This document shows, piece by piece, positions 3 through 12,642 of a stretch of 12,642 bases of DNA. Made by a program: the position numbers and the translations under genes. Numbering within the stretch: the first letter of the stretch is position 1; each line of letters opens with the position of its first letter. The notes under the pieces were generated by a model. It saw only the letters and a list, made by a program, of their open reading frames with translations. It was not told the origin of the DNA and ran no database searches. Origin of the DNA: Sulfurimonas sp. (GTDB lineage: Bacteria; Campylobacterota; Campylobacteria; Campylobacterales; Sulfurimonadaceae); contig DAOVJL010000014.1 of assembly GCA_030673275.1 (NCBI GenBank), positions 1 to 12,642 on the forward strand. The letters are read 5' to 3'.

Positions 3-953
3 GAGGCTCTAAATATTTTAGATACTCAAAGAATTGACTTAATTCTGATGGATTTAATGATGCCGGTTATGGATGGATATGAAGCTACAAGTATCATAAA
101 AAATGATGACAGGTTTTCAACCATTCCCCTTATAATTATTTCGGCCCTCTCAGACAAAGAAGCTATTACCAAGGGGCTCAAACTTGGTGCAAATGAGTAT
201 TTAACAAAGCCTTATGACATAATTGAATTTGGCCTTAGAGTTAAAAATGCCATTAAACTCGGAGCGTATCAAAATATGCTCAAAGATCACAAAAAGATTT
301 TAGAATTAGAGGTTTCTAAAAAAACAAAAGAGCTTCAAGTTGCACTTGTTGAAGTCCAAAAAAGTGAACGAGACATTGTCTCTATACTAGGTAAAATTGC
401 TGAATTTAGAGACAATGAAACCTCAAAACACACGGTCAGGGTTGGTGAAATGGCAGCTTTAATAGCCAAAAAATTCGGATGGAGTGTTGATGATGTAGAA
501 CTTATGAGACTTGCTGCCCCTATGCATGATGTGGGGAAAATAGGCATTCCTGATAATATACTTCTAAAGCAAGGTAAACATGATGGTGAAGAATCTAAAA
601 TAATGAGACAACACTCCTCTATAGGCTACTCTATACTATCTCAAAAAGAAACACCTCTTTTAAAACTTGCAGCTGAAATAGCGCATACACATCATGAAAA
701 ATACAACGGCTTAGGCTATCCAAACTCTCTAAAAGCTGATGATATACCAATTAGCGGTGCAATTGTTGCAATTGTTGATGTTTTTGATGCTCTACTTAGT
801 GAGAGACCTTATAAAAAAGCCTTTACACTTGAAAAAACTATTGAAATCATAAAAAGTTATTCAGGCTCATATTTTTATCCTGAGGTAGTTGAACTGTTTA
901 TTGATTCTCTTGATGAAATATTAGAGATAAGAGCAAGATTAAAAGATGTTTGA
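3..953 (+). CDS. Response regulator with HD-GYP c-di-GMP phosphodiesterase output, 5' truncated
   Basis: The reading frame is open from the window edge, so the true start lies upstream; residues here are numbered from the first full codon at position 3. The N-terminal part is a receiver (REC) domain: phospho-acceptor Asp17 in LILMDLMMPVMDG and the conserved Lys69 in YLTKPYD are present, while the first strand with the acidic pocket is cut off. A helical linker (about 85-125) leads to an HD-GYP domain with His143, His175-Asp176 (HDVGKIGIP), His204, HTHHE at 228-232, GLGYP at 236-240 and Asp259 in the DVFDAL segment. This is a complete metal-binding set, so the protein should hydrolyse cyclic di-GMP in the cytoplasm when phosphorylated. 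It overlaps the following kinase gene by 8 bases, implying translational coupling and a cognate pair. The output (c-di-GMP breakdown) is known for the family; the signal is unknown. Confidence 0.93.
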   Translation, partial: EALNILDTQRIDLILMDLMMPVMDGYEATSIIKNDDRFSTIPLIIISALSDKEAITKGLKLGANEYLTKPYDIIEFGLRVKNAIKLGAYQNMLKDHKKILELEVSKKTKELQVALVEVQKSERDIVSILGKIAEFRDNETSKHTVRVGEMAALIAKKFGWSVDDVELMRLAAPMHDVGKIGIPDNILLKQGKHDGEESKIMRQHSSIGYSILSQKETPLLKLAAEIAHTHHEKYNGLGYPNSLKADDIPISGAIVAIVDVFDALLSERPYKKAFTLEKTIEIIKSYSGSYFYPEVVELFIDSLDEILEIRARLKDV

Positions 954-2985
954 TTTTTTTAAAACATCACTACGCAATAAACTTCTATTTATTTTTATAA
1001 GTATTGGCTTTTTACCATTTCTTACACTTTTAATATATACACTTTTTTTAAGTGAATCAAAAATGGTGAACAGGACTATAGTTGAACAGCTTGACAGAAC
1101 CAATGTGGTTATAAAATTAATTGACAATCATTTAGACGGTTTAAACAAAGAAGTTAAATTTCTAAGCTCTCTTGATTTAATGGATGACCTCTTAGCAGAA
1201 GATATTGACAAAAGGATTTCAAGACTTTTAACTCAAAAAGCAGATGATTTAAATTTAGATATCTCTTTTATGGCAGTTACTTTAGACTCTACAATAGTCG
1301 CTTCATCAAATAAAGATAATTTACTCAAAAATTGTAATTTAAATAAGTTCAATTTAAAAGACCATGGAACTTATATAATGGATAATAACTTATATATATA
1401 TTCACAAATTACCGCTTCATTTGATAAAACAAAACAGCTGGGATTTTTGGTTTTACGCTACAATTTAAATAATTTAGATTCATACTTAACACATACCGAC
1501 ACAATACACTCATTTATAATAAATCCGAAAAACTCTTATATTATAGGTGAAAATGTACCTTTAAGTATTGATTTTAACTATTCAAGAAATAGTCTAATAG
1601 ACGATAACCATGTTGCTGTATACAAAAAATTATCACCTATTTTAGATGGTTTTCATATTGTATATGTGGTGGATAAAGATGTTGCTTTTGAATTTTTATA
1701 TGATTTTATAAGTTTTCTACTCTACATGTCACTTGTTGTTTTTATGTTAATAATCTATATATCCATTAAACAATCAAAAGAGATAGTAAAACCTATTGAA
1801 GAGCTAACAGCTACAACTGATTACATAACTCAGACACACAACTATTCGACACAATTAGAGATAAGTTCACAAGATGAGATAGCTACATTAACACACTCTT
1901 TTAATGATATGCTTAAAACAACCTCTTCTGCGCTTGAAAAACTCGAAAAAGAAAATAGACTAAGACTAAGAAGGTTTACTCAGTTAATCAACGTATTTAA
2001 TACTATTATTCAAACTAAAAATGAAAATGAGTGTATAGATATTTCAATGCAAGAGATAAAAAAATTAACACATAATAATAAATTATATTTTAAAAAAGAG
2101 CAAGATATAGCTCCAGATAAAGAGAGTACAAATATCTATGTTACAGATTTTGAAAATAATAATAAAATTTACTTTGGTTCTATCGAATTAGACATAGATA
2201 AATTTGAAGATAAAAATGAGAAAGATTTTTATAACTCTATTACTTCCATGATAACATTGCAGCTTGACAGGATTAGACTAATTGAGAGAACGGCAGGTGC
2301 TTCAAAAGCAAAATCTGCCTTTATATCTAACATGTCACATGAGCTTAGGACTCCACTAAATGCTATTATTGGTTTTGCACAATATATGATTGAGTATGAA
2401 GAGTTAAATGAAGAGCAAAAAGATATAGTTGAAAATATTGAATCCTCTGCTCAATATCTGCTAAGCATGATAAATGAAATTTTGGACATTGCTAAGATTG
2501 AAGCCGGTAAAATGGAAGCAAATATTGAGAGTGTTAATATTTTAGATATACTTCAAAGCAGCTACAATATGCTCCTCCCTTTAGCAAAAGATAAAAATAT
2601 TAAATTTGATTTTATTTTTGATGATTTCAATAACAGAACCTATCAAACCGATCCTAAAATGTTCAAACAAATTATAATAAATCTTATCTCAAACGCTATT
2701 AAGTTCACTCAAAAAGGAAATATACTATTAGAGCTCTACAGTAGCAATGAACATGTATATGTAAAAGTAAAAGATAGTGGCATAGGAATATCTAAAGATG
2801 ATCTTTCACATCTGTTTAATGATTTTACTCAAGTAGAAAATCTTATGCAAAAGAGCCATAAAGGGACAGGTTTAGGATTATCTCTAAGTAGAAAAATGGC
2901 AAGAATATTAGGTGGAGATATTATACTTGAGAGCAAAGGTGTCGGGCATGGTACCACATCTATATTTTCACTGCATAATCAATAA
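946..2985 (+). CDS. Membrane sensor histidine kinase (dCache-like sensor, HAMP, HisKA, HATPase)
   Basis: A 679-residue sensor kinase. Membrane segments are visible at about 12-35 and 252-273, enclosing an extracytoplasmic sensor of about 215 residues that fits a Cache/PAS-like fold by size and position only. A HAMP domain (about 274-326, KPIEELTATTDYI onward) and a coiled stretch follow. Residues 343-447 may be a degenerate GAF-like domain. HisKA carries the phospho-acceptor His465 (NMSHELRTPLN). The ATPase domain has an N box with Asn583, a G1 box DSGIGIS at 610-616 and a G2 box GTGLGLS at 640-646. There is no receiver domain, so it must pass phosphate to a separate regulator; the HD-GYP regulator directly upstream, overlapping by the ATGTTTGA sequence, is the obvious partner. 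ATG at 946 is chosen because the hydrophobic N-terminus begins just after it. The gene ends in tandem stops TAATAA. The ligand is unknown. Confidence 0.93.
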   Translation: MFDFFKTSLRNKLLFIFISIGFLPFLTLLIYTLFLSESKMVNRTIVEQLDRTNVVIKLIDNHLDGLNKEVKFLSSLDLMDDLLAEDIDKRISRLLTQKADDLNLDISFMAVTLDSTIVASSNKDNLLKNCNLNKFNLKDHGTYIMDNNLYIYSQITASFDKTKQLGFLVLRYNLNNLDSYLTHTDTIHSFIINPKNSYIIGENVPLSIDFNYSRNSLIDDNHVAVYKKLSPILDGFHIVYVVDKDVAFEFLYDFISFLLYMSLVVFMLIIYISIKQSKEIVKPIEELTATTDYITQTHNYSTQLEISSQDEIATLTHSFNDMLKTTSSALEKLEKENRLRLRRFTQLINVFNTIIQTKNENECIDISMQEIKKLTHNNKLYFKKEQDIAPDKESTNIYVTDFENNNKIYFGSIELDIDKFEDKNEKDFYNSITSMITLQLDRIRLIERTAGASKAKSAFISNMSHELRTPLNAIIGFAQYMIEYEELNEEQKDIVENIESSAQYLLSMINEILDIAKIEAGKMEANIESVNILDILQSSYNMLLPLAKDKNIKFDFIFDDFNNRTYQTDPKMFKQIIINLISNAIKFTQKGNILLELYSSNEHVYVKVKDSGIGISKDDLSHLFNDFTQVENLMQKSHKGTGLGLSLSRKMARILGGDIILESKGVGHGTTSIFSLHNQ

Positions 2986-3003
2986 TAAAAAACTATGAAT
3001 CAG

Positions 3004-5118
3004 TTAAGATAAATATTTTTTTAACTCTATATACAATGCATCCTCATCTATAGGTTTTCCAATAAACCCATCCATTCCTAAATCAAGAAATTTTTCTCGG
3101 TCACCCTCCATTGTATTTGCTGTTATAACAATTATAGGAACAATATCTGAATGATTTAGTCGTATTATCTGCATAGCTTCAGTTCCGCTCATATTTGGCA
3201 TATTTTCATCCATTAATACAAGATCATACTTTTGATTGCCATACATTTTTACAGCTTCCAAGCCATCATTTGCAACTTCACATGTCAAACCATACTCTTC
3301 AAGCATTATTTTCATCAACATTTGATTTGTTATATTATCTTCTACTACGAGAATATGTCCGGATAACTCTTGTCTATCCTCACTATCTATATCCTGTTCC
3401 TTCCTGATTTGTTTTTTATCATCACTAATACTCTCTATTGGAAGTGTCAATTTAAATGTTGAGCCCTCCCCTAAAGTACTTTTCAGAGTTAATTTACCAC
3501 CCATCATTTGTGCTAATTGAAGTGATATACTTAATCCAAGACCTGTTCCGCCATACTCCCTAGTAGTTGAACTGTCAGCTTGTTCAAAAGCTTTAAATAT
3601 ACGATTTTGAGCATCCTCACTTAATCCAATTCCATTATCTTTAACACAACATGTAAACGTAGCGTTCTCATAACTTGCTGCTACTGTTATACTTCCACCA
3701 TCAGGAGTAAATTTCACAGCATTAGACATTAAGTTCATTATTATTTGAGATATACGCTGCCAATCACCATTTAATCCCAAATCACTCTTTATTAGAAGGT
3801 CATAATTATATGAGATACTTTTTTTATTACACTCAAGTTCAAATGGTTTTAGAATCTGTAGTAAGTTTTCATGAATAAAAAATGGATGTTTAGAGATAGA
3901 AAATTTACCACCTTCTATTTTTGAAATATCTAATATATTATTAATCAACTCTAGTAGTATATTAGAACTTTCAAGTGATGTTTTTAAATATTTATGTATC
4001 TCTTCATTGTCTGTTTTTTTATCTGCCAACTTAGTAAACCCTATTATTGAGTTTAGCGGTGTTCTTAATTCATGGCTCATATTTGCTACAAAATTATCTT
4101 TTGCTTTTTGAGCTAGTATTGCTTTTTCCTTAGCTTCAACCAACTCTGTTACATCATATCGTACTCCGATATACTCTTCTATCTCATTATCTACATTTAA
4201 AATTGGAATTACTGTTGAATCAGCATAATATGCTTCTCCATTTTTCTTTTTATTTTTAATCAATGCCCTGAAAATCTTTTTAGACTTAATTGTTTCCCAC
4301 ATAGACTTAAATGCCTTAGAAGGCATATCCGGATGACGAATTATATTGTGTGGCTTGCCGATTAACTCCTCTTTTGTATATCCGCTCAGTTCACAAAATC
4401 TTTCGTTAGCATACGTAATCCTGCCTTTGAGATCCGTTTTTGTAATAATATTACTCTCATTAAGTGCTGATGCGAACTGCTCAGACTCTTTAGCAAGTTT
4501 TTTATTAAGTTTAATCTCCTCTTTTAACTTATATTCTGATTCAACAAGTGAGAGATGATTTTTAATTTGGATTCTTATAATATATACTAGTATTGCTCCT
4601 TCTATTATTGCAAATATAGAGTGTAAAATTACAATATCCCAACCACATCCGTAATTAAATATCTGAATCGGCATATCAAAAATATATATATTATTTGTCT
4701 GAAGATAGTTAAATAACATATGATGTACAGCTGTTGCTAGAGTTGCAATGACTACAGGATATATATCTTTATATAGTGTTAGAAGTGCCAGTACGATAAA
4801 TACATGAAAATGCATCTCTATTCGACCAAGATGTTGCTGTATAAAAATTGAAGAGAATAGCATTAAACTTATAGCGATAGAGTAGCGTAAAACAGGCTGC
4901 CCTCTATAATACCTATATAGGATTGCATTGGCGGTAAATATAATACCACCATTAATAAAGCCATACAAATATGTACCATACTCATAAGATGTCACAAATA
5001 CAGCCACCATCCAATGAAAAAAGAGTAGATATAACATAAATTTATCAGCTTTTTCAAAATCCCTATGAAATGCTGATTTAACATATGCAGATATATTATT
5101 AAAATTAAATATACTCAT
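3004..5118 (-). CDS. Hybrid sensor histidine kinase: 6-TM sensor, Aer-like PAS, HisKA, HATPase, REC
   Basis: A 704-residue hybrid kinase. Residues about 25-182 hold roughly six membrane helices with histidines at 35, 96, 103, 105, 132, 133 and 166; the segment HLGRIEMHFHVF resembles a membrane sensor module seen in other bacterial chemoreceptors and kinases (recalled, not searched). A PAS domain follows (about 216-325); its NIIRHPDMPSKAF stretch closely resembles the FAD-binding PAS of the energy taxis receptor Aer, suggesting redox sensing. HisKA has His349 (NMSHELRTPLN), the ATPase has Asn466 (LMSNAVKF), DNGIGLS at 494-500 and GTGLGLS at 524-530, and the C-terminal receiver has Asp637, Thr666 and Lys688. 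No Hpt domain or partner regulator is nearby, so the phosphate target is not evident. The gene converges on the upstream kinase gene with 18 bases between stops, and diverges from the SCO-like gene. No strong Shine-Dalgarno precedes the ATG. Confidence 0.92.
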   Translation of the reverse strand: MSIFNFNNISAYVKSAFHRDFEKADKFMLYLLFFHWMVAVFVTSYEYGTYLYGFINGGIIFTANAILYRYYRGQPVLRYSIAISLMLFSSIFIQQHLGRIEMHFHVFIVLALLTLYKDIYPVVIATLATAVHHMLFNYLQTNNIYIFDMPIQIFNYGCGWDIVILHSIFAIIEGAILVYIIRIQIKNHLSLVESEYKLKEEIKLNKKLAKESEQFASALNESNIITKTDLKGRITYANERFCELSGYTKEELIGKPHNIIRHPDMPSKAFKSMWETIKSKKIFRALIKNKKKNGEAYYADSTVIPILNVDNEIEEYIGVRYDVTELVEAKEKAILAQKAKDNFVANMSHELRTPLNSIIGFTKLADKKTDNEEIHKYLKTSLESSNILLELINNILDISKIEGGKFSISKHPFFIHENLLQILKPFELECNKKSISYNYDLLIKSDLGLNGDWQRISQIIMNLMSNAVKFTPDGGSITVAASYENATFTCCVKDNGIGLSEDAQNRIFKAFEQADSSTTREYGGTGLGLSISLQLAQMMGGKLTLKSTLGEGSTFKLTLPIESISDDKKQIRKEQDIDSEDRQELSGHILVVEDNITNQMLMKIMLEEYGLTCEVANDGLEAVKMYGNQKYDLVLMDENMPNMSGTEAMQIIRLNHSDIVPIIVITANTMEGDREKFLDLGMDGFIGKPIDEDALYIELKKYLS

Positions 5119-10281: not shown

Positions 10282-11090
10282 TCCTTTTCAATCCAAGCAT
10301 CAGTTTTAAGTAGCTCTCCATCATCAAACTGTTTTAATTTAAAAGCTTTAGTACATTCGCCATTGCTAAAATCCATTATTACCATCTGAAGTATTTTTTT
10401 ACACTTTTTAGGAACATCAAAATGACCTTTCACTCCAGTCAAAAATTGTTTTAGAGGTACTTTCTCATCCATGCCTATAACATTGTCTCTACAACCGGTA
10501 AGTCCAATATCTGTTAAGTATGCTGTACCTTGTGTAATTTGAAAATCATCGGTAGAAACATGAGTATGTGTTCCAATAATTGAACTGACCTGCCCTTGAA
10601 GAAGCATCATCATAGCTCTTTTTTCACTTGTTGCTTCTGCATGAAAGTCTACAAAAATATTTTTTACCCCATCTGCATGTAGAGCTTCAACACTCTCTTT
10701 TGCTTTTCTAAAGGCATTGTCAGTAAAAGGCATAGAGTAATGACCCATTAGATTTAAAACTGCCAGTTTTTCACCAGCCACATCATAAACCTTACAACCA
10801 GTTCCAGCAACACCATCAGGATAATTATGCGGACGAAGTATCTCATGAGAATCAAACAGAGGTAAAATATCTTTCTTATCCCAAGAGTGATTACCGCCAG
10901 TCATACAGTCAACACCATAACTAACTATCTCATTGGCATTTTTTGGTGTCATCCCAAAACCGTGAGAGGCATTTTCATAGTTAGCAATAACAAAATCTAT
11001 TTTATACTCTTTTTTCATTTCTGGTAAATATTGTTTCAACATCTCACGACCGGGACGACCTACTATATCACCTATAAAAGCTATTCTCAT
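10278..11090 (-). CDS. ymdB: YmdB-family metallophosphoesterase (cyclic nucleotide phosphodiesterase-like)
   Basis: A 270-residue protein of the YmdB/TIGR00282 family, full length. The dinuclear metal site known from Bacillus subtilis YmdB is intact at the same residue numbers: Asp8 (GDIVGRPGR), Glu39-Asn40 (ANYENASHGFG), Asn67-His68 (GGNHSWD), His150 (DFHAEATSEK), His175 and His177 (GTHTHV). The Bacillus enzyme hydrolyses 2',3'-cyclic nucleotides and affects biofilm and colony behaviour; the role in this lineage is not established. ATG at 11090 is fixed by the conserved MRIAFIGD start. The gene converges on the 151-residue gene, sharing the palindromic CTAG so that each strand reads TAG. Its first codons and upstream DNA are copied at 11564-11704, see the remnant there. 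Confidence 0.93.
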   Translation of the reverse strand: MRIAFIGDIVGRPGREMLKQYLPEMKKEYKIDFVIANYENASHGFGMTPKNANEIVSYGVDCMTGGNHSWDKKDILPLFDSHEILRPHNYPDGVAGTGCKVYDVAGEKLAVLNLMGHYSMPFTDNAFRKAKESVEALHADGVKNIFVDFHAEATSEKRAMMMLLQGQVSSIIGTHTHVSTDDFQITQGTAYLTDIGLTGCRDNVIGMDEKVPLKQFLTGVKGHFDVPKKCKKILQMVIMDFSNGECTKAFKLKQFDDGELLKTDAWIEKD

Positions 11091-11126
11091 ATTTGTTCTT
11101 ATATTTTAATTTATTGAAATTATATC
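11034..11126. repeat. Direct repeat, copy 1: ymdB 5' end plus upstream DNA
   Basis: This stretch, spanning about 57 bases of ymdB coding DNA and about 36 bases upstream, matches 11612-11704 without gaps and with about 10 differences in 93 bases by eye. The constant offset is 578 bases. Confidence 0.88.
11119..11124 (-). promoter_or_regulatory. -10 box of the YmdB-family gene
   Basis: On the minus strand this reads TATAAT, giving a start near 11112 and a leader of about 20 bases. In the duplicated copy the same place reads TATTAT, so the promoter of the remnant has decayed. Another TATAAT lies at plus 11141-11146. Confidence 0.45.
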
Positions 11127-11183
11127 TAAGTTTATTGATAATTATAAAACCTGCTTTACCAATAAATATAAAGCAGTACAGTC

Positions 11184-11197
11184 TTGATATAAATCAA
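11184..11197. promoter_or_regulatory. Perfect FNR-type box upstream of peptide gene A
   Basis: TTGAT-ATAA-ATCAA matches the FNR consensus TTGAT-N4-ATCAA at every defined base, and the symmetry extends one more base on each side (C and G). Its centre is about 30-40 bases before weak -10 candidates TATATT (11216-11221) and TATAAC (11225-11230), close to the position used by class II activators. A bulged inverted repeat (AAGTATATT / AATATaACTT, 11213-11232) overlaps these -10 candidates. The box is identical in copy B. Confidence 0.65.
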
Positions 11198-11273
11198 GAT
11201 TATACTATTGATAAGTATATTAAATATAACTTAACAATAGTTGGTAGTTATAAATCAATAAGAAGCTTAAAAG

Positions 11274-11326
11274 TTAAATCGGATAAAATTACTCTGATTT
11301 AAAAATACTAGAGCGTAATGCGCTCT
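11274..11326 (+). promoter_or_regulatory. Structured leader with two hairpins, copy A
   Basis: Hairpin 1 pairs TTAAATCGGA (11274-11283) with TCTGATTTAA (11293-11302), ten pairs including one G-U, around a 9-base loop. Hairpin 2 pairs AGAGCG (11310-11315) with CGCTCT (11321-11326) around a 5-base loop. AAAGGA (11331-11336), 6 bases before ATG 11343, is the ribosome binding site and is not itself paired. All stems are unchanged in copy B. Confidence 0.55.
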
Positions 11327-11342
11327 TACCAAAGGATACAAA

Positions 11343-11480
11343 ATGAAAAAGATCATTTTACTAATCGCGTTAACACTAGGTGCTTTACAAGCTGAGAATG
11401 TAGTTCATTATGATACTAATGATACTGCTAAACCGCAGACAGATAAGCCTAACTACCCTAATAACGATATTCATCGTTAG
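11343..11480 (+). CDS. Small secreted peptide A (45 residues)
   Basis: A 45-residue precursor. Residues 1-17 (MKKIILLIALTLGALQA) are a textbook Sec signal peptide with an AxA-like LQA cleavage site, leaving a mature peptide of about 28 residues that starts ENVVHYD, is polar, Pro/Asn/Asp-rich and has no cysteine. Coding status is supported by AAAGGA 6 bases before the ATG, by the second copy at 12480, and by the change pattern between copies (signal part kept, mature part altered by replacements). The function is unknown; I do not recognise the family. An FNR-type box and a hairpin-rich leader suggest expression under low oxygen or another CRP/FNR-family signal. The tail ends IHR-stop; relative to copy B a 2-base indel changes the end. 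A 9-pair hairpin follows the stop. Confidence 0.8.
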   Translation: MKKIILLIALTLGALQAENVVHYDTNDTAKPQTDKPNYPNNDIHR

Positions 11481-11495
11481 ATAGGTTTTCTTATA

Positions 11496-11519
11496 CTTCC
11501 ACCTTCTCTTAGGTGGAAG
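11496..11519 (+). terminator. Hairpin after peptide gene A, probable terminator
   Basis: CTTCCACCT (11496-11504) and AGGTGGAAG (11511-11519) form a perfect 9-pair stem with a 6-base loop, 15 bases after the stop codon. The downstream DNA (ATATATTATTCC) is only moderately T-rich, so it may stabilise the 3' end of the message rather than act as a full intrinsic terminator. The left arm recurs at 12635-12642, where the window ends. Confidence 0.55.
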
Positions 11520-11563
11520 ATATATTATTCCTCACTAAAACCATATCATTAAGATTATAATTA

Positions 11564-11668
11564 CTACAACACTTTGGGTTTAGAGTTTTCCTTGATTTTA
11601 GAAAGACACTTCTTTAACATGTCACGACCGGGACTACCGACTATATCACCTATAAAAGCTATTCTCAT
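11564..11668 (-). pseudogene. 5' remnant of a second ymdB-like gene
   Basis: Read on the minus strand from ATG at 11668 this gives MRIAFIGDIVGSPGRDMLKK and then a poorly matching tail, stopping at TAG (11564-11566) after 34 codons. The first 19 residues match the YmdB-family protein with two changes (Arg12 to Ser, Glu16 to Asp), and similarity fades by about residue 30. It keeps Asp8 of the metal site but lacks all other ligands, so it cannot be an active enzyme. Its -10 box reads TATTAT rather than TATAAT. It is the scar of a duplication that copied the start of ymdB and adjacent DNA. The region between the hairpin at 11519 and the next gene otherwise shows nothing I can name. Confidence 0.85.
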
Positions 11669-11704
11669 ATCTATTCTTATTATTTAATTTATTGAAATAA
11701 TATC
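11612..11704. repeat. Direct repeat, copy 2: ymdB 5' end plus upstream DNA
   Basis: Second copy of 11034-11126. The match stops at about 11704, where DNA leading to the Sel1-repeat gene begins, whereas copy 1 runs on 43 bases to the peptide unit. Confidence 0.88.
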
Positions 11705-11753
11705 AAAATAAAAAAATTTAGATATACTGCCTGATTGTCTATAAAAAAGTAGC

Positions 11754-11759
11754 TATAAT
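11754..11759 (+). promoter_or_regulatory. TATAAT box abutting the start of the Sel1-repeat gene
   Basis: A perfect -10 hexamer preceded by AGC. Its last T is the first base of the TTG start codon at 11759, so normal initiation 6-7 bases downstream would fall inside codons 2-4. Either it is not the promoter of this gene or the gene has lost its leader. Confidence 0.4.
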
Positions 11760-12232
11760 TGAAAAAAATCCTATTAATATTAAGCATATTTTTTTGTGCT
11801 AACTTAAGTGCTAGCATAGAAACAGAGTTTATCAAAAATGCACACACAAAGTATGAAGAAAAAAAGTATAAAGAGGCAGTTGACATGTACAACAGAGGTT
11901 GCTACATGGGATTTGATGATGCTTGTATATCATTAGGAGCTATGTATCTTATTGGTGACAATGTAAAACAAAACATCAATAAAGCAAAAAGATATCTTGC
12001 CATGTCTTGTATAAAAGGCAATATAAGCTCTTGTAATTTACTGGAACAAGAAAAACAAAGACAAAAAGATATAATAAAAGCAAAGTTACAAGACGCTGAT
12101 TTTTTTATGCGAAAAAATATTTCATTTGACAAAGTTAAAAGATGGAAAGAAGCTGGTTTTACAGCAAAAGAAATCCGTCATTACATTAATAATAATATTA
12201 CTCTTAACAAAGCAAAAAACTTAAATAATTAA
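11759..12232 (+). CDS. Small secreted Sel1-repeat (HCP-like) protein, start uncertain
   Basis: A 157-residue protein with a Sec signal peptide (about 1-19, KKILLILSIFFCANLSAS) and two Sel1-like repeats (about 35-95). The cysteines pair as Cys48/Cys56 and Cys84/Cys92, 8 apart within a repeat and 36 between repeats, the pattern of Helicobacter cysteine-rich proteins (Hcp), which are exported and disulphide-stabilised. A Lys-rich helix follows, and the C-terminal 45 residues contain VKRWKEAGFTAKEIRHYINNNI, a Trp/Gly-Phe helical unit. Hcp proteins in Helicobacter bind or process cell-wall-like ligands or meet host cells; the role here is unknown. The start is odd: TTG with no Shine-Dalgarno and a -10 box touching it. 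No in-frame ATG lies before the repeats, yet the signal peptide argues that codon 1 is right. It may be a recently damaged gene. It sits between the ymdB-like remnant and peptide unit B. Confidence 0.72.
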   Translation: MKKILLILSIFFCANLSASIETEFIKNAHTKYEEKKYKEAVDMYNRGCYMGFDDACISLGAMYLIGDNVKQNINKAKRYLAMSCIKGNISSCNLLEQEKQRQKDIIKAKLQDADFFMRKNISFDKVKRWKEAGFTAKEIRHYINNNITLNKAKNLNN

Positions 12233-12306
12233 AGTACCTTCGGTTTGGAATTTCTTCCTTGTTCCACCTCTCCTGAGACTGTGAAAGATGGGACGAGATT
12301 ATTAGC
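12233..12306. other. Spacer with a possible decayed copy of the peptide-gene hairpin
   Basis: The segment around 12244-12292 (GGTTTGGAATTTC, then GTTCCACCTCTCC, then GTGAAAGAT) resembles, at perhaps 60-70% by eye, the DNA from 11484 to 11521 around the hairpin after peptide gene A. Its arms no longer pair well. This would be the footprint of an older unit, but the match is weak. Confidence 0.25.
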
Positions 12307-12320
12307 AAAGCAGTACATTC

Positions 12321-12334
12321 TTGATATAAATCAA
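12321..12334. promoter_or_regulatory. Perfect FNR-type box upstream of peptide gene B
   Basis: The same TTGAT-ATAA-ATCAA as in copy A, although bases just outside it have changed (G to T on the right flank), which suggests the box itself is under selection or the copies are young. Confidence 0.62.
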
Positions 12335-12410
12335 TATTATATAATTGATAAGTATATTAAATATAACTTAATAATAGTTGGTACTTATTAATCAATAAGA
12401 AGCTTAAAAG

Positions 12411-12463
12411 TTAAATCGGATAAAATTACTCTGATTTAAAAATACTAGAGCGTAAGGCGCTCT
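12411..12463 (+). promoter_or_regulatory. Structured leader with two hairpins, copy B
   Basis: Hairpin 1 (12411-12420 with 12430-12439) is identical to copy A. Hairpin 2 (12447-12452 with 12458-12463) keeps its stem, with one loop change (TAATG to TAAGG). That change strengthens an alternative pairing, GTAAG with CTTAC, across the same place. AAAGGA (12468-12473) is the ribosome binding site. Confidence 0.55.
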
Positions 12464-12479
12464 TACCAAAGGATACAAA

Positions 12480-12623
12480 ATGAAAAAAATCATTTTACTA
12501 ATCGCGTTAACACTAGGTGCTTTACAAGCTGAGAATATAGTTCATTATGATGCTATTGATACTGCTAATCCGCAGACAGCTAAGCCTAACTACCCTAATA
12601 ACGATATACACTTCGTTAGATAA
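12480..12623 (+). CDS. Small secreted peptide B (47 residues)
   Basis: Paralogue of peptide A. Residues 1-19 are identical in sequence, including the signal peptide MKKIILLIALTLGALQA with cleavage expected before Glu18; the mature part starts ENIVHYD and is about 30 residues. Between the copies the mature part has five replacements (Val20Ile, Thr25Ala, Asn26Ile, Lys30Asn, Asp34Ala, A to B), whereas the signal-coding part has one silent change. A 2-base indel makes this copy end IHFVR-stop instead of IHR-stop. The segment KPNYPNNDIH is kept in both and may be the functional core. The ribosome binding site, leader hairpins and FNR-type box are shared with copy A. Function unknown. Confidence 0.8.
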   Translation: MKKIILLIALTLGALQAENIVHYDAIDTANPQTAKPNYPNNDIHFVR

Positions 12624-12642
12624 GTTTTCTTATCCTTCCACC

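Follow-up and report, generated by a model that had tools for sequence, protein, structure and literature searches.

A small, putatively exported peptide family of Sulfurimonas and its probable place in an Rrf2-type iron–sulfur and oxidative-stress regulon

The end of contig DAOVJL010000014.1 of Sulfurimonas sp. (GenBank assembly GCA_030673275.1; Campylobacterota, Campylobacterales, Sulfurimonadaceae) carries two closely similar open reading frames (ORFs) of 45 and 47 residues. Frames of this size raise the question of whether they are genes at all and, if so, what switches them on and what their products may do for the cell. The window, by which we mean the whole stretch of 12,642 nucleotides analysed here, had initially been annotated as containing a duplicated gene for a tiny secreted peptide, possibly induced at low oxygen through an FNR-type regulator. 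The two ORFs are genuine and coding, and are not chance frames. Taken as a whole, the explanation that we favour, with some reserve, is a stand-alone small-peptide gene with its own promoter, 5′ untranslated region (5′UTR) hairpin, ORF and terminator, controlled as a member of an Rrf2 regulon. The gene copies and the blocks in which they lie are the following.

11343..11480, plus strand: peptide gene copy 1, encoding a 45-residue precursor with predicted cleavage after A17 and a mature peptide of 28 residues
12480..12623, plus strand: peptide gene copy 2, encoding a 47-residue precursor with a mature peptide of 30 residues; continues on contig C214
11170..11503, unstranded: left copy of the duplicated block, 94% identical to 12307–12642
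12307..12642, unstranded: right copy of the duplicated block (partner 11170–11503, 94%), reaching the contig end

These coordinates agree with the initial annotation, in which two precursor ORFs had been placed with their starts 1137 bases apart, and the duplication it described is evident as the 94% block pair. The last 127 bases of the window are identical to positions 8–134 of contig C214, and the peptide fragment on C214 is therefore the remainder of copy 2. The genome, which is 69% complete, contains at least four copies of the gene: two in the window, one on contig C74 and one on contig C201, the last being truncated by the contig end and adjoining rpsU (named by reading).

Relatives of the 45-residue sequence were found in 49 of the 100 genomes of the genus, its own included (E ≤ 0.01), and the same query and threshold gave a relative in 34 of the 61 genomes that were at least 90% complete and at most 5% contaminated. 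From 100 candidate stretches, 83 relatives were confirmed and 80 were kept as named loci; the 81 precursors or loci counted below comprise the two window copies and 79 of these named loci, L122 being left out with its start off the contig. ORF size in the family's peptide genes is 42–62 residues. Across 212 equal-length, non-independent pairs the ratio of non-synonymous to synonymous differences (pN/pS) was approximately 0.23 (pS 0.50, pN 0.115), and differences numbered 3166 at third, 1495 at first and 756 at second codon positions. The family proposed in the initial annotation is thus borne out both by its homologues and by third positions changing most. It also lies outside the curated models: no Pfam model scored above cut-off for the 24 members searched (best E 0.026), nor did any NCBIfam model for the 40 members searched (best E 0.034).

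A profile search of the phylum matched 39 of 298 genomes (E ≤ 0.01), with only weak matches (E 1.3e-5 or worse) beyond the same genus and one genome of the same family (G258); those outside families f1 and f11 were judged to be mostly signal-peptide similarity in longer frames. An order-wide alignment search (E ≤ 0.001) matched 33 of 398 genomes, namely 20 of the same genus, two others of the same family, ten of one genus of family f11 and one, in family f4, judged spurious as signal-peptide similarity. The match G000:C34 was likewise rejected as a family member. The f11 homologues (eight proteins read) are longer, at 64–69 residues, and have two V-x-Y-like motifs.

What controls these genes is suggested by a palindrome that had been overlooked in the initial annotation.

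11276..11300, unstranded: 25-bp imperfect palindrome (11-3-11), predicted Rrf2-type operator of copy 1, overlapping the predicted −10 element TAAAAT (11284–11289)
12413..12437, unstranded: 25-bp palindrome, predicted Rrf2-type operator of copy 2

The pattern AAATMRGAYAA-WWW-TTRTCYKATTT is found upstream of the peptide genes, at 79 of the 81 loci (within 260 bp, at most three mismatches), and in most loci, judged by eye, it overlaps a TAAAAT taken as the −10 element. The GAC-N7-GTC core reads GAT or GAG in many peptide promoters, including those of the window, where it overlaps the predicted −10. Despite the diverged peptide, the palindrome is kept in six of the eight f11 homologues read (at most three mismatches). 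At divergent loci it lies upstream, is doubled or falls within the 5′UTR, as a DNA operator can. Folding of the palindrome as an RNA hairpin was rejected, with 47 of 620 cells unpaired and a site that moves or doubles at divergent loci; some of its pairs at those loci (5 of 10) do change on both sides, as those of a symmetric DNA site would likewise. At two loci, L124 and L040, the 5′ hairpin is immediately preceded by a stretch that is similar in both and may be an inserted element; the palindrome of L124 is farther upstream.

The same element also stands before other genes. A scan pattern derived from the peptide promoters alone matched all 25 genomes scanned, with 2–7 forward matches each versus 0–2 for the reversed control. 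All 46 sites with at most two mismatches were classified in eight genomes (G005, G009, G061, G085, G091, G108, G225 and G258), the genes being named by family searches for the examples run and by reading of the sequence for the others. Peptide genes account for 13 sites, whereas 24 lie upstream of a NifS-type cysteine desulfurase, Mrp/ApbC, thiol peroxidase (tpx) or superoxide reductase (sor) and two upstream of other iron–sulfur (Fe–S) genes (ThiC and a ferredoxin-like protein); one lies at a peptide gene that has decayed, in the gap from rpsU to dnaG, and six are elsewhere, four of them inside genes. In the genome of the window itself, if one mismatch is allowed, the palindrome occurs outside the peptide genes at nifS, superoxide reductase and mrp. 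The decayed gene (L222, G005) retains a CRP/FNR-like box, the palindrome, a hairpin-like leader and a terminator-like hairpin.

In other families of the order, 13 of 15 genomes have the palindrome at one mismatch. A subset of their sites was fetched as 20 regions from six of these genomes, in 11 of which the palindrome adjoins genes of Fe–S or oxidative-stress type: superoxide reductase (twice), SufB (twice), Tpx, Mrp, a NifU-like protein, SufE, ThiC, an FmdE/NapA-like pair, and a di-haem peroxidase with a cytochrome c, the palindrome lying between these two genes. The remaining nine regions are ambiguous or of another kind, one example being an acetyl-CoA-synthetase-like gene. The palindrome thus marks a wider Fe–S and oxidative-stress regulon in other Campylobacterales families (L273–L292). 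In one of the regions (L290, 2502 and downstream; family f8) a different small secreted protein is encoded downstream of the palindrome, with a second palindrome 162 bases further on.

The candidate for the protein that reads this element is of the Rrf2 family. Rrf2 proteins occur in all 25 genomes, and a subfamily with three cysteines (91, 98 and 106) was read in 18 of them and in the window's own genome; in five genomes the single Rrf2 found is of the three-cysteine form. An orthologue was present in 18 of the 19 genomes searched for it, and the sole genome without one (G361) lacks the palindrome too. When the Rrf2 of G108 was compared with PDB sequences, the best match was 6y45 (1.3e-11); two Rrf2 entries ranked first, followed by another BadM/Rrf2 protein, with IscR lower (1.5e-4). 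We take PDB entries 6hsd and 6y45 to be RsrR.

Three known systems bear comparison. IscR of Escherichia coli is an Fe–S-sensing Rrf2 repressor of Fe–S assembly, and the consensus of its type 1 sites is a 25-bp palindrome; GAC and GTC stand at the same places as here, whereas the outer half-site letters differ. Repeats of 11-3-11 layout are described as characteristic of full-length Rrf2 sites in the part of the RsrR account consulted (PMC5015018). The site of Streptomyces RsrR has this layout, the same as here, but its reported class 1 targets suggest a role in NAD(P)H and glutamate metabolism, unlike those found here (PMC5015018). The third, going by the passages of the RisR account seen, is the regulon of Myxococcus xanthus, in which a cluster-loaded repressor of isc and suf recognizes GAC-N7-GTC in AT-rich flanks (PMC9973013): it shares the three-cysteine Rrf2, the AT-flanked promoter palindrome and the Fe–S assembly targets. 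The cysteines are C92/C102/C108 in RisR versus C91/C98/C106 in the Sulfurimonas protein, and risR lies within the suf operon, whereas rrf2 in the window's genome does not adjoin Fe–S genes (PMC9973013). Those passages mention no small exported peptide (PMC9973013). The titles and abstract openings returned by full-text literature searches describe no such regulon in Campylobacterales.

Because the palindrome is common to nifS, mrp, tpx and sor, has an Rrf2-type layout and coexists with a three-cysteine Rrf2, we consider it quite probable that the peptide gene belongs to an IscR/RisR-like Rrf2 regulon of Fe–S and oxidative-stress genes. The peptide would then probably be made when the iron–sulfur chemistry of these bacteria is under stress. 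For the peptide gene and its regulon membership together, comparative sequence analysis makes a strong computational case.

The initial annotation had named a different switch, on the basis of boxes that lie farther upstream.

11184..11197, unstranded: CRP/FNR-type box TTGATATAAATCAA, copy 1, 78 bp upstream of the palindrome
12321..12334, unstranded: CRP/FNR-type box TTGATATAAATCAA, copy 2

That these boxes are real elements of the family is clear from their frequency. Boxes of the TTGAT-N4-ATCAA type (relaxed to TTGAY-N4-RTCAA) occur within 260 bp at 34 of the 81 loci, including both window copies, versus 0.27 expected from base shuffles, and a box accompanies a doubled palindrome upstream of the C201 copy. 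Nineteen boxes lie just before the palindrome, 18 of them exactly 14 bp from it and near −41.5. A low-oxygen, exported peptide system with FNR as its main switch could draw on these figures and on the genome's CRP/FNR-family proteins, three of which were found, each with a PETLSR recognition helix. It is nevertheless unlikely, as scanning up to 260 bp upstream gave no box at 47 of the 81 loci and the near-universal element is the palindrome. The window boxes, moreover, lie at about −105 of the conserved promoter and not near −41.5, and a second promoter is possible; in the window copies and four other loci the box is 150–159 bases before the start codon. FNR has an N-terminal cluster of Fe–S-binding cysteines as well as its recognition helix. 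The genome, 69% complete, yielded three CRP/FNR proteins, none with an FNR-like cysteine cluster and one with a single cysteine at position 18; a CRP/FNR box therefore does not imply oxygen sensing. The genes are thus FNR-boxed as annotated, at both window copies and at 34 loci in all, but the main switch would lie elsewhere and control by FNR at low oxygen is not upheld. A second regulatory input at some loci is likely.

Control may also be exerted on the transcript, for which the window provides the following elements.

11310..11326, plus strand: 5′UTR RNA hairpin AGAGCGTAATGCGCTCT, copy 1; covariation, fold z −2.85
12447..12463, plus strand: 5′UTR RNA hairpin, copy 2; covariation, fold z −2.44
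11331..11336, plus strand: ribosome binding site AAAGGA, copy 1, conserved in the alignment
12468..12473, plus strand: ribosome binding site AAAGGA, copy 2
11496..11519, plus strand: intrinsic-terminator-like hairpin 3′ of copy 1

The ribosome binding site, AAAGGA before both copies, had been recognized at the outset; the palindromes, the 5′UTR hairpin that precedes the ribosome binding site and the terminator-like hairpin had been missed. Across 62 distinct leaders the 5′ hairpin has standard pairs in every one of 372 pair cells, and 23 cells are changed on both sides versus 3.4 in shuffles; three of its six pairs are invariant and one varies on one side only. This count left out 17 of the 79 distinct leaders, which deviated from the standard pattern of the hairpin; some of these, by eye, have another short hairpin in its place. 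A minus-strand terminator was rejected, since frequent G–U pairs on the plus strand would be A–C mismatches on the other, and the one match in Rfam, to DapZ, was discarded at 22.7 versus 56 bits, far under threshold. So strongly conserved a covarying hairpin, together with the terminator-like hairpin, could suggest that the transcript acts as a regulatory RNA in which the ORF is secondary. This is very unlikely in view of the pN/pS of 0.23 and the third-position excess (3166 differences versus 1495 and 756), and the ORF is kept in f11, where no such leader hairpin was seen by eye.

The precursor is apparently exported. Its start, MKKIILLIALTLGALQA, was judged by eye to be a signal peptide, with a basic n-region, a hydrophobic h-region and a small residue at the cleavage site, and M1, L6, L10, L12 and L15-Q16-A17 are invariant in 24 aligned sequences; the signal peptide and the mature length of about 28–30 residues originally predicted accord with this. 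AlphaFold2 modelled residues 2–19 as a helix and the remainder as nearly unstructured (mean predicted local distance difference test score 69.6). The mature peptide is rich in Tyr, Asp, His, Asn and Pro. Every one of the 81 precursors contains V-x-Y-D, with I accepted in place of V and N in place of D, and a motif of the PN(H/Y)P type, in which a few differ at one letter; an I/L-Y/H motif is also conserved, HYD occurs in 68 precursors and 78 are free of cysteine. Internal duplications within the mature peptide were noted in L089, L099 and the C201 copy.

A small product with an export signal, encoded in several copies and variable in mid-sequence, could be a cell–cell signal (pheromone) or a bacteriocin-like peptide. 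The surroundings of the 79 named loci make this quite unlikely. The neighbours, named by reading, belong to several groups unrelated to one another (rpsU/dnaG; a nitrite/sulfite-reductase-like or NrdG-like gene accompanied by a two-component pair; radical SAM together with a CorA-like gene; and numerous isolated cases), and no constant receptor, immunity or exporter gene adjoins the peptide, which shares its regulon with housekeeping Fe–S genes. Matches to peptide families were below threshold: AimP reached E 0.11, and Defensin_propep was touched by 9 of 24 members (best E 0.026), the window peptide scoring 15.2 bits against a cut-off of 23.6. In 10 of the 79 named loci the first gene upstream was read as radical SAM, and three of 40 members touched a model for the ribosomally synthesized and post-translationally modified peptide (RiPP) cittilin (best E 0.15). 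We nevertheless give hardly any credence to a RiPP precursor modified by the adjoining radical SAM protein, since that gene is divergently transcribed and is not nearest upstream in the window or in the other 69 named loci, a Sec-type signal takes the place of a RiPP leader and no RiPP model scored convincingly. Four divergent loci (L110, L114, L119 and L126) have a gene for a small cytochrome c as their immediate downstream neighbour on the same strand, one such gene being confirmed by family search. No constant partner gene was found beside the peptide among the 79 named loci, and the peptide therefore apparently works by itself or upon a target whose gene lies elsewhere.

The Rrf2-regulon account can be put together as follows. 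When clusters are plentiful, a cluster-loaded Rrf2 dimer would occupy the 25-bp palindrome over the −10 element and block RNA polymerase. When clusters are damaged or scarce, as under oxygen, peroxide, nitric oxide or iron limitation, Rrf2 would release the palindrome and the peptide would be produced alongside NifS, Mrp, Tpx and superoxide reductase, with a CRP/FNR-family activator near −41.5 adding a second condition at some loci. A role in setting mRNA stability or translation is probable for the 5′ hairpin. The precursor would be exported through Sec and cleaved after A17 by signal peptidase I, releasing an unstructured mature peptide, 28 or 30 residues long here, in the periplasm. Given this regulation and the conserved Tyr, Asp, His, Asn and Pro motifs, we tentatively suggest, with more doubt than confidence, that it buffers iron, haem or oxidants (redox) there. 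A narrower form, which we regard as rather unlikely, is that it serves as the periplasmic output of the Fe–S sensor: a sacrificial disordered Tyr/His/Asp peptide capturing stray ferric iron, haem or oxidizing equivalents, perhaps beside the small cytochrome c and MauG-like di-haem peroxidase of the regulon.

Several observations weigh against the Rrf2-regulon account. The window copies, compared over 43 codons, show about one synonymous and five non-synonymous changes, and taken by itself this pair gives no sign of constraint. Their palindromes are imperfect, the right half reading GAGTAA versus GACAA (two mismatches, other strand). No peptide was found at E ≤ 0.01 in 51 of the 100 genomes of the genus, some of them incomplete (one, G016, did yield a peptide in the later alignment search), and five genomes (G009, G030, G031, G047 and G054) have the palindrome and no peptide match; the peptide is therefore accessory. 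G237 lacks the palindrome at one mismatch despite an Rrf2 orthologue of 45% identity; in G137 the orthologue has 43% identity and the palindrome is present. The Rrf2 scores below the NCBIfam IscR equivalog cut-off (47.2 versus 207.55 bits) and passes only the Rrf2 superfamily model, and the regulator is therefore said to work like IscR or RisR and not to be IscR. AlphaFold2 gave no confident fold for the mature part, and the presence of HYD in only 68 of the 81 precursors weakens a strict metal-ligand view.

The window holds some further features around the two genes.

11610..11704, unstranded: duplicated fragment comprising the 5′ end of a ymdB-like gene and its upstream region (partner 11031–11126, 90%)

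The parent of this fragment, the neighbouring ymdB-like gene, belongs to PF13277 YmdB by family search. Between the peptide copies, 11759–12232 is an ORF with a TTG start and a signal-peptide-like N-terminus, for which a Sel1 repeat match was below threshold (27.5 versus 30.7 bits). After copy 2 the window probably continues into C214 (L018), where positions 196–3186 encode a 996-residue ORF resembling Mfd.

For the Campylobacterales, these results reveal an Fe–S and oxidative-stress regulon whose operator is sharp and for which an Rrf2 protein is the candidate regulator. They also connect an orphan family of micropeptides with a defined stress regulon, by which its function becomes testable. 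If the mature peptide were indeed sacrificial, it would protect the electron-transport chain of these sulfur- and hydrogen-oxidizing bacteria.

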